A DNA stretch of 62,797 nt. Origin: a virus. Numbering within the stretch: the first letter of the stretch is position 1; each line of letters begins with the position of its first letter. The translations under genes and the position numbers were made by a program. The DNA is taken from positions 1 to 62,797 of the IMG/VR virus record IMGVR_UViG_3300025410_000589. One strand, given 5' to 3'. Shown here in pieces: positions 8,585 through 62,797 of the stretch. A model generated the notes under the pieces. The model ran no database searches. It had not been told where the DNA came from and saw only the letters and a list, made by a program, of their open reading frames with translations.

Positions 8585-8885
8585 AAAGTGGCTGAGGGAC
8601 CGAGGTCTTCACCCAGAACAACGAGCCTTGCAAAAAGCATACAGAGGCAAACATAAAAATTCTATTCCTGATTATAATACTGATCGTAGCATGCTTAGCA
8701 ACAGCGTGGGCAATGGTTTTACGAAAGGTATAATGGCTAACATACATAAAGAGTCTCCCGAGGTACAGCGTGCTATTCTTGAGAAAGCTAGTCGTGTCAT
8801 GCCTCTGTTTAACAAGGGTGGCTTACAGTATGCTACGCCAAGTACTGATATGACTATGGTTGGTTCTAAGAGCAGGAGGGGTTGA
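8481..8885 (+). CDS. Conserved phage protein of unknown function
   Basis: This 134-residue basic protein contains the blocks LAEATAQHEKWLRDRGLHP, NSVGNGFTKGIMANIHKE, and a C-terminus ending GSKSRRG. I recognise this pattern as a widespread conserved hypothetical of tailed phages. It is Lys/Arg-rich, especially at about 18-50. A start at 8487 is also possible. It overlaps the upstream membrane protein gene and its stop shares a base with the next start (TGATG). Confidence 0.75.
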   Translation: MSMHLVGPYLTTTKYSQKQKKSKSKKLAEATAQHEKWLRDRGLHPEQRALQKAYRGKHKNSIPDYNTDRSMLSNSVGNGFTKGIMANIHKESPEVQRAILEKASRVMPLFNKGGLQYATPSTDMTMVGSKSRRG

Positions 8886-9079
8886 TGGATTACAAGGTGA
8901 AGAAAGAAGACAATCAGTTTAAGGTTATCGAAACAAAGACTGATAAGATTATCTATGAATCTGTTGACGAAAAGAAAGCTCGTGAGCTTGCTAGGAAGTG
9001 GAATCTTGGTGGAGGATTTTCTGGTTGGACACCAACTTTTTTTCTTGACGAGCATAAATTTCAGCCCCAGACTGACTAA
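8885..9079 (+). CDS. Hypothetical 64-residue protein
   Basis: The ATG at 8885 has a consensus AGGAGG five bases upstream. The product has a short beta hairpin (QFKVIETKTDKIIYES), a helix (EKKARELARKWN) and a Gly/Trp loop. It resembles generic phage proteins with a YVV/IYE pattern but I cannot name a family. Confidence 0.65.
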   Translation: MDYKVKKEDNQFKVIETKTDKIIYESVDEKKARELARKWNLGGGFSGWTPTFFLDEHKFQPQTD

Positions 9080-9085
9080 ATAATA

Positions 9086-9191
9086 TCAGAAATGGTTTTG
9101 TATTGCTAGTGCACAGCAAAGAGGCAAGTCGATTTATCGAGAGGAATAGTTGAGAATAACGGTGGGGTTCCGCTCAACCGAACCATTCTGA
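9086..9191 (+). ncRNA. Candidate structured noncoding RNA (multibranch fold)
   Basis: No gene fits this stretch, but it folds by eye into a closed multibranch. The outer stem pairs TCAGA+AATGGTT (9086-9097) with AACCATTCTGA (9181-9191), with one bulged base. Three inner hairpins follow: TTGCT/AGCAA around a 7-base loop (9103-9119), TCGA/TCGA near 9129-9140, and GTTGAG/CTCAAC (9149-9178) containing CGG/CCG with a 7-base loop. It ends five bases before a strong terminator hairpin. It resembles a cloverleaf in outline but has no tRNA consensus. No clear promoter immediately upstream was seen. Confidence 0.5.
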
Positions 9192-9195
9192 TTCA

Positions 9196-9224
9196 GGGGG
9201 AGATCTTCGGGTCTCCCCCATTTT
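9196..9224 (+). terminator. Rho-independent terminator with UUCG tetraloop
   Basis: A ten-pair stem (GGGGGAGATC with GGTCTCCCCC, one T-G pair) is closed by a C(TTCG)G tetraloop at 9205-9210 and followed by ATTTTC. Ends the early transcript, or the RNA candidate just before it, ahead of the late structural block. Confidence 0.85.
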
Positions 9225-9230
9225 CATTGA

Positions 9231-9238
9231 TATAAATA
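9231..9238 (+). promoter_or_regulatory. T4-type late promoter (TATAAATA)
   Basis: Exact TATAAATA, 30 bases before the start of the virion-protein gene at 9268 and just after a terminator. This is where a late promoter is expected. Confidence 0.65.
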
Positions 9239-9267: not shown

Positions 9268-10602
9268 ATGTTTAAGTTTAAAGATTTTCTAACGGAAGCG
9301 AAGAAAAAAGAAGAAGATGATTTTAAAACAGGCGATTCTGCTGGTAAACTTTTTGAATTACTTAAAGCCAGAGAACAAAATGGCGGAACGTTTCCCGAAT
9401 CTCACAGAGTTGAAGGCAAAACACCAACTGATATTCATAACAAGATGGCTGCTAAAATGTTTGGTGATGAATATGAAAAACATCCACAATATAAAAATCT
9501 TGTTAAAACAGCACAAATTGCTGCAAAAGCAAACGATACTTTCAACCAATCAGAACATGGTCATGATGTTAAGAAAGGTTATCAGAGAGTCGCATGGACA
9601 TCTCAACCAGCAGATCATCAAAAAGAAACAGGTCATGAAGATCCAAATTCTGTAGCCGATAGTATCCCGACATTAAGTCATGGCGCTATGATTGCGCATT
9701 CTGACAAATTAACAGGTAAAGGTCAATCAGTCAACTATAAGAATCCAGGTTCTAAGACTATGGAGATGTTGGCTCAGACTAGTTTAAAAAAACATACTGA
9801 ACCTCATGCAAAATTGTTAAAGGACAAAAAGTTAACGAGTGGCGAAGAAGGTCATAATCAATACAAAGCATTAAGAGATTCTGATAATCCAGAAGATCAA
9901 GAAACAGCAGCTTCAGTAAAGAAATCGGCTGATGTAGTCAACCAAAAATTTGCTAAAGATATACATGCTGGTCTGTTGGCTCAACAGGCTAGAGATGCTC
10001 AAAATGGTACTAATGAATTGAGAGATACTATCGTTAAAGCAGTAGCTCCTAAGACTCACCTTAAGACAGTCGTTACTCATACTGAAGTCGATAATCATGG
10101 TAATCATGCGCATACTAAAGTTTATGACTTGCACGATCACGTCAACCAATACTTAAATAATTTCGAAAATTTACACGTAGATCCAGTCCACAAACAAGGG
10201 CAATCTTCAGTCACAGTTTATGGTCATCATAAAAAAACTGGTAAAAGAATGAGATTGATGGGTCTTTCAGTTTATTCTGGGGGTAGACCAACAACCATTT
10301 CTCCTAGAGGCGCCATAACTCTTCCTAGCGAGAATCATCCTGATGTTGAATATACTAATCATCATATAGTTGGCGCTAATGGTGAACATCAAACAAATAC
10401 TCCTGTTAAACAGAAACATTCTGTAGAAAAACCAGTAGAACAAAAGAAACCAAAAACAAGAGAACCAGGCCCAAGAGCTTTATCGAGTATCGTAAAGCCA
10501 AGACCTAAAATTGTTACTAATCAAGAACAGAAACAACAGAAAACCAACAACAGCAGACAATCATCAATTGGTGGTAAGAATTTTTATGGTGAATCAGAAT
10601 GA
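9268..10602 (+). CDS. Putative capsid-packaged protein with T4-like targeting peptide
   Basis: This 444-residue, His/Lys/Gln-rich protein begins MFKFKDFLTE|A. That matches the ten-residue capsid-targeting sequence of T4 internal proteins, which the prohead protease cuts after [LI]-x-E. Four other proteins in this block share it. The rest is low in hydrophobics with many HKK, GHH and EH patches, a composition of DNA-associated internal proteins; no enzymatic motif recognised. The C-terminus (about 375-444) is basic and probably disordered. GAGGGTG precedes the ATG. Four-base overlap with the next gene. Confidence 0.7.
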   Translation: MFKFKDFLTEAKKKEEDDFKTGDSAGKLFELLKAREQNGGTFPESHRVEGKTPTDIHNKMAAKMFGDEYEKHPQYKNLVKTAQIAAKANDTFNQSEHGHDVKKGYQRVAWTSQPADHQKETGHEDPNSVADSIPTLSHGAMIAHSDKLTGKGQSVNYKNPGSKTMEMLAQTSLKKHTEPHAKLLKDKKLTSGEEGHNQYKALRDSDNPEDQETAASVKKSADVVNQKFAKDIHAGLLAQQARDAQNGTNELRDTIVKAVAPKTHLKTVVTHTEVDNHGNHAHTKVYDLHDHVNQYLNNFENLHVDPVHKQGQSSVTVYGHHKKTGKRMRLMGLSVYSGGRPTTISPRGAITLPSENHPDVEYTNHHIVGANGEHQTNTPVKQKHSVEKPVEQKKPKTREPGPRALSSIVKPRPKIVTNQEQKQQKTNNSRQSSIGGKNFYGESE

Positions 10603-12500
10603 TCAATTTCAGACAGTTTATCATTGAGGAAGAACAGCAAGAAGGCAAGAAACTCAAGCATCTAACTCACATCGAAGACATGCCAATCCATCATGGGCAT
10701 GAGGGTGTTGCTGCTGCCGATGCTATGCTTAGGGATACCCATAAGGCATTGACTGGCAAGGGAATGGGTAAGTCAACCATATCAACAAAATATGATGGCG
10801 CTCCTTCTATCGTTTATGGTCATCACCCAGAGACTGGTAAATTCTTTGTTGCTTCTAAGTCAGCTTTCAATAAAGATCCAAAGATAAACTATACACCTGA
10901 AGATGTAGAACGTAATCATGGTCACGCTCCAGGTCTGGTAGAAAAACTAAAGGCAGCATTAGAACATCTTCCTAAAGTCGCGCCCAAGAAAGGTGTGTTC
11001 CAGGGCGATGTTATGCATACGCCAAACGATGTTGAAGATCATGATGGTAAGTATCACTTTACGCCAAACACCATCAAGTATTCTGTAGGTAAAGATTCTA
11101 CTGAAGGTAAAAAGATTAAGAACTCGAAGTTCGGTATCGTTACTCATACTCAGTATGATGGTAAAGATATGGGTTCTATGAGCGCTGCTCCTATCAGTCA
11201 GGAAAACAAAGATAAGTTTAAGCAACATCCTGACGTACATCAGATCGACCCTGCGACGAATACGGAGGGTGCACACTATACTCCTGAGATGCAAAAAGAA
11301 TTTGCTAATCATATGGAGAATGCGAGACGCACCTACGCTAATATGGACCACTCAACCCCAGAAATCACAAAAGGCCATGAGATAAATCTTGAGGCTCATG
11401 TTAACGACATGGTTCGTAAGGGTGGCACTCCATCAGTCGAGGGTTTTATCTCACATCTTAAGAATAAGAAGATGAAAGATGTAGAGAAACTAAAATCCCC
11501 AGCTGGTAAAGAAAAGAAAGCCAGAGAGCATGACGATAACATAGGTCATGTCGAAGACAACAAAGAACACTTTAAGAATCTATTAGATCTACACAGTCAT
11601 CTACAGAAAGCCAAGAACGTTCTGGTTAGAGGATTGAATTCATCGGGTAGCCCATATGAGCATTCCGTTGACGGCAAGAAGACTGATCCCGAGGGATTCG
11701 TAATCAATCGTGGCGATCATATGTCTAAGCTGGTCAATCGCGATGAGTTCTCAAGAATGAACCTTCTTGGCGCTGGTAAGATGAGCAAGAGAAACGAACC
11801 AGCAAAAGAAGAAGATGATAAGCCAATCGTCTATGCGCATGGTAGAATGAATCCACCACATGCTGGCCATGAAGCTGTGATCAATAAAGTCCATGAGCTT
11901 GCTAATCAACAGGGTGCAGATCATAAGGTCGTATTGACTCATACTCAGGATCCTGAGAAGAATCCACTATCACCACAAGATAAGCTGGCTCATGCTAAGA
12001 AACTATTCCCAAAGACAAACTTCGGTCTATCGGATGACGAGCACCCAACACTAATAGAACAGCTTGCTAAACTAAACAAGGCTGGCCATAAGAAACTGAC
12101 AATGGTTGCTGGCGATGATCGCGTAGAGGGTTATAAAAAACTATTGAACGATCGCAACGGTAAAGATTTTGATTTTAAAAAGATTGATGTAGTATCGGCT
12201 GGTGGTCGAGATCCAGACTCTGAGGGCGTTGAGGGTCTTTCGGCTTCAAAGATGAGAGACCATGCTATCAACGGTCGTGCTAAAGAATTCGCTGCTGGGC
12301 TACCAAAAGGAACAAGCCCAGAACATGCTAAACAATTGATGCAAGATACAGCCAAGGGAATGGATATTCCTATCACTCCAAGCACTCATCCTGTTACTCT
12401 TAAACGTCATGCTCTAAGAAATGATCCGATCGGCCATGCTGCTCAGAAAGAGTTAAATAGAAGAGCTGCCGAAAAAGTAATGAGTAAGAAGAAAAAATGA
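10599..12500 (+). CDS. Packaged ligase-like / HxGH nucleotidyltransferase fusion
   Basis: This 633-residue protein starts MINFRQFIIE|E, a capsid-targeting-like peptide. Residues about 20-390 show motifs of the DNA/RNA ligase nucleotidyltransferase superfamily: motif I KYDG (64-67, Lys64 the likely nucleotide acceptor), a motif III-like FQGDVM (134-139), motif IV EGFVINR (365-371) and a Lys at 377 near motif V. Residues about 409-555 form a second, cytidylyltransferase/NMN-adenylyltransferase-like domain with HAGH (421-424) and LSASKMR (548-554 region), the counterpart of the ISSTxxR motif. Fusion of two nucleotidyl-transfer domains in a likely injected protein is striking. Substrates are unknown. 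Confidence 0.75.
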   Translation: MINFRQFIIEEEQQEGKKLKHLTHIEDMPIHHGHEGVAAADAMLRDTHKALTGKGMGKSTISTKYDGAPSIVYGHHPETGKFFVASKSAFNKDPKINYTPEDVERNHGHAPGLVEKLKAALEHLPKVAPKKGVFQGDVMHTPNDVEDHDGKYHFTPNTIKYSVGKDSTEGKKIKNSKFGIVTHTQYDGKDMGSMSAAPISQENKDKFKQHPDVHQIDPATNTEGAHYTPEMQKEFANHMENARRTYANMDHSTPEITKGHEINLEAHVNDMVRKGGTPSVEGFISHLKNKKMKDVEKLKSPAGKEKKAREHDDNIGHVEDNKEHFKNLLDLHSHLQKAKNVLVRGLNSSGSPYEHSVDGKKTDPEGFVINRGDHMSKLVNRDEFSRMNLLGAGKMSKRNEPAKEEDDKPIVYAHGRMNPPHAGHEAVINKVHELANQQGADHKVVLTHTQDPEKNPLSPQDKLAHAKKLFPKTNFGLSDDEHPTLIEQLAKLNKAGHKKLTMVAGDDRVEGYKKLLNDRNGKDFDFKKIDVVSAGGRDPDSEGVEGLSASKMRDHAINGRAKEFAAGLPKGTSPEHAKQLMQDTAKGMDIPITPSTHPVTLKRHALRNDPIGHAAQKELNRRAAEKVMSKKKK

Positions 12501-62021: not shown

Positions 62022-62138
62022 ATGATTCCTAGCTGGTATAAAATCTACACACGCATCATTGACAATACTATAAAGATAGTTTGGTTGATATTACTGATAA
62101 CATGGCTGCTTGATGGCGCCAAATTGCTTGTAAAATAA
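62022..62138 (+). CDS. Single-span membrane micropeptide
   Basis: 38 residues starting one base after the previous stop: MIPSWYKIYTRIIDNTIKI then a hydrophobic helix (IVWLILLITWLLDGAKLLV). Last protein gene before the tmRNA. Confidence 0.55.
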   Translation: MIPSWYKIYTRIIDNTIKIVWLILLITWLLDGAKLLVK

Positions 62139-62139
62139 C

Positions 62140-62168
62140 TTGACTTTTTACCCAATGTAGGCTATAAA
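62140..62168 (+). promoter_or_regulatory. tmRNA promoter
   Basis: TTGACT (62140-62145), 17 bases, TATAAA (62163-62168), which also forms a TATAAATA late-type box (62163-62170). Transcription would begin near 62175, at the start of the acceptor piece. Confidence 0.78.
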
Positions 62169-62174
62169 TAATAT

Positions 62175-62503
62175 GCGATGGTCGTTGACGTTATACGGCA
62201 TAAGCACACTGGACTCGGGGGCGGTACCCGACGCCTCCACCATAGATACATGGTGCTGTTACCAATTAAGGTGTAAGGATGCCATCAAAAAGAACGTACA
62301 GCTCCGTTCTGGCAAATCGTCATCATGTATCTTTGCTGGGGGCGAAATAGGATCGACAGGTGTGATAAAGGTATTACTGAGATCATAGCAAACGTCATAG
62401 ATGCAAACGATAATGCACCTATCGCTATGGCACTAGCTGCCTAAGCATGAGCTTTTGGTAGTTTTGGCTTGGAAACAGAACAAAACTACCGTCAATAACA
62501 ACT
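62175..62503 (+). ncRNA. ssrA: Permuted, two-piece tmRNA (ssrA)
   Basis: The acceptor piece comes first: T-stem TCGGG/CCCGA and acceptor CGCCTCC (62232-62238) followed by A and CCA (62240-62242). The coding piece begins GGGGGCG at 62338, pairing completely with that acceptor and giving the G3-U70 alanine identity pair. The typical GGATCGACAGG follows. The tag reads from GCA at 62403 as ANDNAPIAMALAA with a TAA at 62442, preceded by TAGAT as in other tmRNAs. The piece ends in a ten-pair hairpin, and CCGT/ATAAC near 62489-62499 can pair with acceptor bases 62190-62198. This order is the alphaproteobacterial permuted form. The T-loop (GGCGGTA) departs from TTCGA. Exact ends are estimated. Confidence 0.93.
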
Positions 62504-62797
62504 TCGTTGATGTAATACTAATCCATTAACTGAAATTATTTTTTTACAATTCAAACAACATACCTTTTTTTGTTGTTTTCCTTGCATTGGATTTTTACCA
62601 TTTCGGCTTTGTTCTTTTCTTTTTTCTATTAAATGTTCTTTCATTCCAGGCATTTTCCACATATTTAATATTTTATTTTTTTGTTGTTCTTTATTTTTAG
62701 GTAATTTATTCATATGCCAAGAATTTCTTTTACCATTTTCCGACATGGTTAACGATATAATTTTTTCTTTATCTATCATTTTAGATAAACCAAGCCA
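62492..62797 (-). CDS. GIY-YIG homing endonuclease, C-terminal fragment
   Basis: The minus-strand frame enters from the right edge with no stop and ends at 62492-62494, giving 101 codons. The protein contains LSKMIDKEKIIS, repeated Lys/Asn-rich DNA-binding motifs like NUMOD3 (NGKNPMQGK) and a terminal CCLNC...C zinc-finger-like end. Such C-termini belong to GIY-YIG homing endonucleases, whose N-terminal nuclease part is seen at the left edge. The stop overlaps the tmRNA 3' end by about 11 bases. Confidence 0.75.
   Translation of the reverse strand, partial: WLGLSKMIDKEKIISLTMSENGKRNSWHMNKLPKNKEQQKNKILNMWKMPGMKEHLIEKRKEQSRNGKNPMQGKQQKKVCCLNCKKIISVNGLVLHQRSCY

Follow-up and report, generated by a model that had tools for sequence, protein, structure and literature searches.

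GOLLD and ROOL, phage RNAs of unknown function, are precedents. ROOL, like OLE, is several hundred nucleotides long. The phi29 pRNA is a phage RNA of about 120 nt that has a three-way junction and intermolecular loop pairing; its sequence is unrelated to the four-way-junction RNA described here. IMES RNAs and marine psRNAs reportedly come from metagenome papers of 2009. If an IMES, psRNA or 224-motif entry turned out to be the RNA described here, the family would already be known and only the phage unit would be new.

Excerpts of PMC12286853 present GOLLD, ROOL and OLE as structured noncoding RNAs with palindromic kissing loops, the first two being carried by phages. The same excerpts give GOLLD a length of several hundred nucleotides, in contrast to the roughly 100 nt found here, and the phage RNA has no Rfam match to GOLLD, ROOL or OLE. 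Structured RNAs of T4-like aquatic phages include wcaG, manA, glnA and PhotoRC-II, which are described as cis elements, manA and others lying in the 5' UTRs of metabolic genes (passages of PMC2864571 and PMC9964418). Unlike these, the RNA found here has its own terminator, a second promoter motif behind it and no Rfam match. The abiF sRNA of cyanophage S-CREM1 is likewise an sRNA in a T4-like phage, according to a section of PMC9964418, but it is a curated Rfam family with no match to the phage RNA. T4 itself encodes two small stable RNAs, RNA C with 139 nt and RNA D with 119 nt (NC_000866); they sit beside the tRNA cluster, however, and neither is found by R1, the covariance model built from the family described below.

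The window, meaning the whole stretch of DNA that was analyzed, is a 62,797-base virus record with the candidate RNA at 9086-9191. Judged from sequence comparison, this segment probably encodes a small structured RNA that stands alone, belongs to a new family and would be expressed late and act in trans. What is new is the class of RNA; a promoter, an RNA and a terminator in a row are ordinary anatomy. It is a structured class without a relative among 4227 Rfam families, and the searches turned up no cultured carrier in the large T4-like group to which it belongs.

The locus and its predicted fold

The RNA lies in a stretch of about 190 gene-free bases between a 65 aa open reading frame (8882-9079, + strand) and one of 444 aa (9268-10602), and the + strand between 9079 and 9268 holds no ORF of 60 aa or more. 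Upstream in the window, PHROGs matches identify a T4-type DNA polymerase, UvsX and a gp41-type helicase. An earlier note, made from the window alone, had described a candidate structured noncoding RNA in front of the late genes, and its sequence and coordinates are correct. The description is supported by plentiful compensatory changes, a late-type promoter motif and a terminator.

Comparison across the family indicates that the RNA is a four-way junction in which P1 closes the structure, P2 and P3 are variable hairpins and P4 bears the heptaloop UGGGGUU. On the + strand of the window, the 5' strand of P1 (9086-9100, bulged in this copy) pairs with its 3' strand at 9179-9191, a pairing favored by both fold and covariation. 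P2 (9103-9119) is the hairpin TTGCT-AGTGCAC-AGCAA, with the palindrome GTGCAC in its loop. It is followed by the conserved junction strand J23 (AGAGGCAAG, 9120-9128), the variable P3 hairpin (TCGATTTATCGA, 9129-9140) and a second conserved junction strand, J34 (GGAATA, 9143-9148). The P4 arm (9149-9178) consists of a six-pair outer stem (GTTGAG/CTCAAC), a 5' bulge (AATAA), a three-pair stem (CGG/CCG) and the heptaloop, L4 (TGGGGTT in the DNA, 9163-9169).

The fold is supported by covariation. In an alignment of 84 rows, 95.5% of the cells are paired, as opposed to 79.0% after shuffling, and 16 of the 18 modelled pairs, including all nine of P1, have changed on both sides, the kind of compensation among related phages that the earlier note had asked to see. 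The score for covariation reaches 0.542, compared with 0.215 for shuffled alignments (none of 500 shuffles as high) and at most 0.097 when the pairing is slid; the relatedness of the copies inflates this shuffle control. Since the alignment was fitted to a model containing P1 and P4, it favors both stems. The outer and inner stems of P4 are paired in 100% of the 84 sequences. The pair closing the three-pair L4 stem is C-G in 54 copies, T-A in 22, A-T in nine and G-C in one, so that it is Watson-Crick in 86 of 86. In two copies outside the training set of R1, L246 and L241, A-U takes the place of L4-stem G-C pairs that do not vary elsewhere, with both sides changed; the loop of L241 reads UGGUGGUU.

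Folding energy says less. The segment 9086-9191 alone has a z of -1.49 (15 of 200 shuffles as good), which improves to -3.28 (1 of 200) when the terminator is included. The note had held that the outer stem (9086-9097 with 9181-9191) was unlikely to arise by chance; the stem is present, with bulges, and its energy is weak evidence for that judgment, but diverged homologues keep it through double changes. Three inner hairpins exist, as had been proposed, but the P2, P3 and P4 favored by comparison differ from the inner pairs of the minimum-energy fold of the window RNA. RNAalifold on the 84-row alignment recovers P1 and chooses other inner pairs, ones without double changes. Because RNAalifold and the minimum-energy fold both differ inside the RNA, P4 is trusted on covariation and not on energy. 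For the two variable hairpins, 97% of the 77 distinct P2 segments fold better than their shuffles (mean z -2.39), and the 69 distinct P3 segments have a mean z of -1.50, with 77% below zero. By eye, L137, L139, L142 and L206 have an additional hairpin within the P4 bulge. Geometric reasoning argues against a pseudoknot between GGAA and UUCC in P4, and the idea was rejected.

A family in uncultured T4-like phages

The initial search for relatives used the neighboring 65 aa protein, not the RNA, and returned nine loci. Six carry the RNA, two being nearly identical to the window and four diverged (L006, L007, L008 and L011); L009 and L010 lack it, and L012 ends too early. A pattern of the shared core then matched at least 119 stretches in IMG/VR. 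The only match to the core pattern in 84,980 genomes, L132, is without the fold and was dropped as a chance match. A pattern of J23 plus GGAATAGT gave 21 stretches, 19 of them already in the core scan; the two new ones, L133 and L134, also have the GGTGGGGTTCC loop, which had not been asked for. J23 plus the loop gave 61 loci, some of them strongly diverged. Letters that belong to the first pattern are invariant by construction; the constancy of the two junction strands was not built in, given that GNGGC (J23) is present in 75 of 75 distinct copies from a pattern without J23 and GGAA in 11 of 11 distinct copies beyond the reach of the first pattern. Among the matches listed, 151 were parsed, and removal of duplicates and of one copy with an N left 86 distinct copies. 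R1 has 31 rows and models only P1 and P4; L137, L139 and L142, misplaced by MAFFT, were left out of its training, and the other rows were thinned to 31. The 84-row alignment was made with R1 from 86 sources, with 84 matches, L139 and L142 falling short of E 0.01.

On these comparisons the RNA is a member of a widespread family in uncultured T4-like phages. Its usual site is just after uvsX, gp41 and a gene of 60-75 aa. At 59 of 89 loci, many of which are on short contigs, one of the four closest ORFs upstream has the size of gp41, and at 67 of 89 a small ORF lies within 130 nt, the call at L087 being spurious. Nine uncultured records searched with R1 hold exactly one copy each. In the named or single-cell records Melnitz, AG-345-D19, C48C1, S-SM2, AG-345-E15, DLP6, HTVC008M, T4, P-SSM2 and phiM12, it finds nothing better than E 0.3, and the matches in T4 (E 0.318, inside e.5) and P-SSM2 (E 0.555) are taken as chance.

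Loci chosen by the gp41 protein confirm the RNA, though not as a universal feature. R1 matches below 1e-4 occur at 8 of 80 such loci; two of these (L182 and L183) are on known contigs, so six are new, L246 and L241 among them. The other 72 show no RNA at E < 1e-4, many of the loci being fragments. Weak matches at L201, L237, L222, L243 and L248 (E 0.3-1.1) are regarded as chance, and the DNA of all but L243 was read. At L185 and L187, downstream of gp41, a late promoter motif and the next gene come straight after the small gene, and the RNA unit is absent from its usual place. Given these two loci and the 72 without a match, the RNA would not be essential to the group; it appears to be a lineage accessory, gained or lost at its usual place. 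The 65 aa gene is a regular neighbor of the RNA. That the small protein is an obligate partner was rejected, as 10 of the 16 gp41 loci with the protein show no RNA, although two of these, L236 and L250, end soon after it. In L206 (4287-4406, - strand) and L233 (2346-2449, - strand), the RNA unit runs in the opposite direction to gp41, and in L233 it still adjoins the small gene.

The protein encoded by this small gene belongs to a family of 60-75 aa with a conserved tail resembling LNxGGxFxGxTPxF and weak matches to PHROG 29065. A model of the 65 aa protein shows beta-beta-beta-alpha at a mean pLDDT of 80.8 and has no match in the PDB at E <= 0.001.

Rfam returned only chance matches for the window RNA, none near gathering score, so that the proposed Rfam check produced no catalogued family. 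None of 33 other family loci reached gathering score; matches up to E 1 were viewed for 10 + 7 of these loci, and the gathering score was applied for 16. A Ysr35 match in L068 over the 3' part of the unit scored 19.7 bits (E 0.15), far under 428. Blastn found no copy with the window DNA as query, nor did it with seven members of the family searched against 50,697 phage records, where five matches to L139 span only its terminator end (query 124-161). No description of the RNA came up in listings of open-licence papers.

Expression and function

The unit has the anatomy of a late small RNA, that is, a late-type promoter motif and a terminator of its own. In the window, the upstream element CTAAATAA (9076-9083, + strand) overlaps the end of the 65 aa ORF with its first bases. 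All 86 distinct copies have TAAATA no more than 40 nt upstream, compared with 11.5% of shuffled upstream stretches, and in 80 of them the motif sits 6-12 nt before the 9-bp core of P1. The T4 late promoter consensus is the standard to which these motifs are likened, and by that likeness they would be late promoters. The intrinsic terminator (9196-9224) has the ten pairs (9196-9219) and the UUCG loop reported in the earlier note, followed by a T-rich tail; a terminator within 75 nt downstream is found in 82 of 82 testable copies and in 21 of 410 shuffles. Another TAAATA lies at +20 to +160 in 76 of 82 copies, represented in the window by TATAAATA (9231-9238), which would serve the next gene. 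Transcription would thus start near 9086-9089, late in infection, and end near 9224, and the transcript may owe its stability to P1, which would seal its 5' end.

Conservation as a late-type unit across very diverged phages suggests that the RNA, and not a protein, does something useful late. J23 holds GGC (GGA in L241), and L4 starts with UGG in every copy read. The unchanging GGC of J23, GGAA of J34 and UGGGGUU of L4 would most likely make up a single surface that binds a macromolecule of the host or the phage, and such constancy suggests a binding function in trans. Action in trans is also suggested by an antisense next gene at 4 of 77 loci and by the inverted units of L206 and L233. The RNA may work as a ligand, decoy or scaffold and not as a message leader; the regulatory small RNA or decoy proposed earlier would fit the anatomy of the unit. 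The loop complement AACCCCA occurs twice on the + strand of the window (11354 and 24389), and no target pattern is apparent.

Several other readings account for part of these observations. A folded domain directly before an intrinsic terminator resembles a riboswitch, and 73 of 77 called loci have the next gene on the same strand, as would suit a cis-acting leader or attenuator whose folded part senses a signal and whose terminator controls the following late gene. This is unlikely because 76 of 82 copies have a second late-type promoter motif after the RNA, the loci L008, L021, L054 and L143 (the 4 of 77) have an antisense next gene, and the longest exact complement between terminator and aptamer in the window is 5 nt, so that no switch is visible. 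The inverted units also speak against it, and a same-strand regulated gene lacking its own promoter, the mark of a cis riboswitch, was not found. Another proposal is an oligomerizing, pRNA-like or virion-associated RNA, in which palindromic P2 loops kiss and the late RNA helps in assembly or packaging. Its late-type promoter would suit such a role, and 23 of the 66 distinct P2 hairpins hold a 6-nt palindrome, where 2000 shuffling runs gave a mean of 8.7 and at most 20. The palindromes switch among CUGCAG, GUGCAC, UGCGCA, UCUAGA, AUGCAU and others, and CUGCAG and UCUAGA recur in L246 and L190. Similar switching is taken as evidence of homodimers for GOLLD and OLE in excerpts of PMC12286853. The copies are related, however, and the palindrome counts are not independent; 43 of the 66 hairpins are without a palindrome, and a stricter off-centre count of 15 falls inside the shuffle range (mean 7.2, maximum 18). 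T4 is not known to have a packaging RNA. We regard an oligomerizing RNA as improbable.

The P4 loop suggests a further idea. The ribosomal P-loop binds the CCA ends of tRNAs, a role also played by the UGGN bulge of T-boxes. In Escherichia coli 23S rRNA, positions 2249-2255 are a heptaloop, UGGGGCG, within GAC/GUC, close to the phage UGGGGUU, and the L241 loop keeps UGG. An L4 that captured CCA ends and so sequestered or protected tRNA late in infection is quite unlikely, though, as the likeness is a five-letter match noted post hoc and UGGGG is present six times in 23S rRNA. The combination of both ideas, a homodimerizing P-loop mimic that would capture CCA ends late as a T-box-like receptor in trans, must be called very unlikely. 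The palindromic stretches between replication and late genes could instead mark a recombination or replication site acting as DNA, but the stems contain G-U pairs and are flanked by a strand-specific promoter motif and a terminator, which makes a DNA element highly improbable. Least probable of all is the degenerate tRNA or tRNA-like element raised in the earlier note. It has a four-way junction and a length of about 100 nt in its favor, but ARAGORN and Rfam report no tRNA in the interval, a cloverleaf with T-arm and anticodon arm is not seen, and T4 rnaC, which ends in the T-arm-like GGGTTCGAATCCC, has by eye no motif in common with the RNA. The P4 loop also lacks the letters of a T-loop. A stand-alone small RNA acting in trans is thus the reading we prefer.

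Other features of these loci are of interest in their own right. In L008, L021 and L054, an antisense ORF of 167-204 aa lies directly behind the RNA unit. The window encodes a 633 aa protein (10599-12500, + strand) in which a region matching PHROG 455 is joined to a C-terminal part resembling a cytidyltransferase. At 62136-62535 (+ strand), it also carries a permuted two-piece tmRNA of the alphaproteobacterial type with the tag ANDNAPIAMALAA; permuted two-piece tmRNAs are known from Melnitz-like marine phages, as reported in a passage of PMC9004378.
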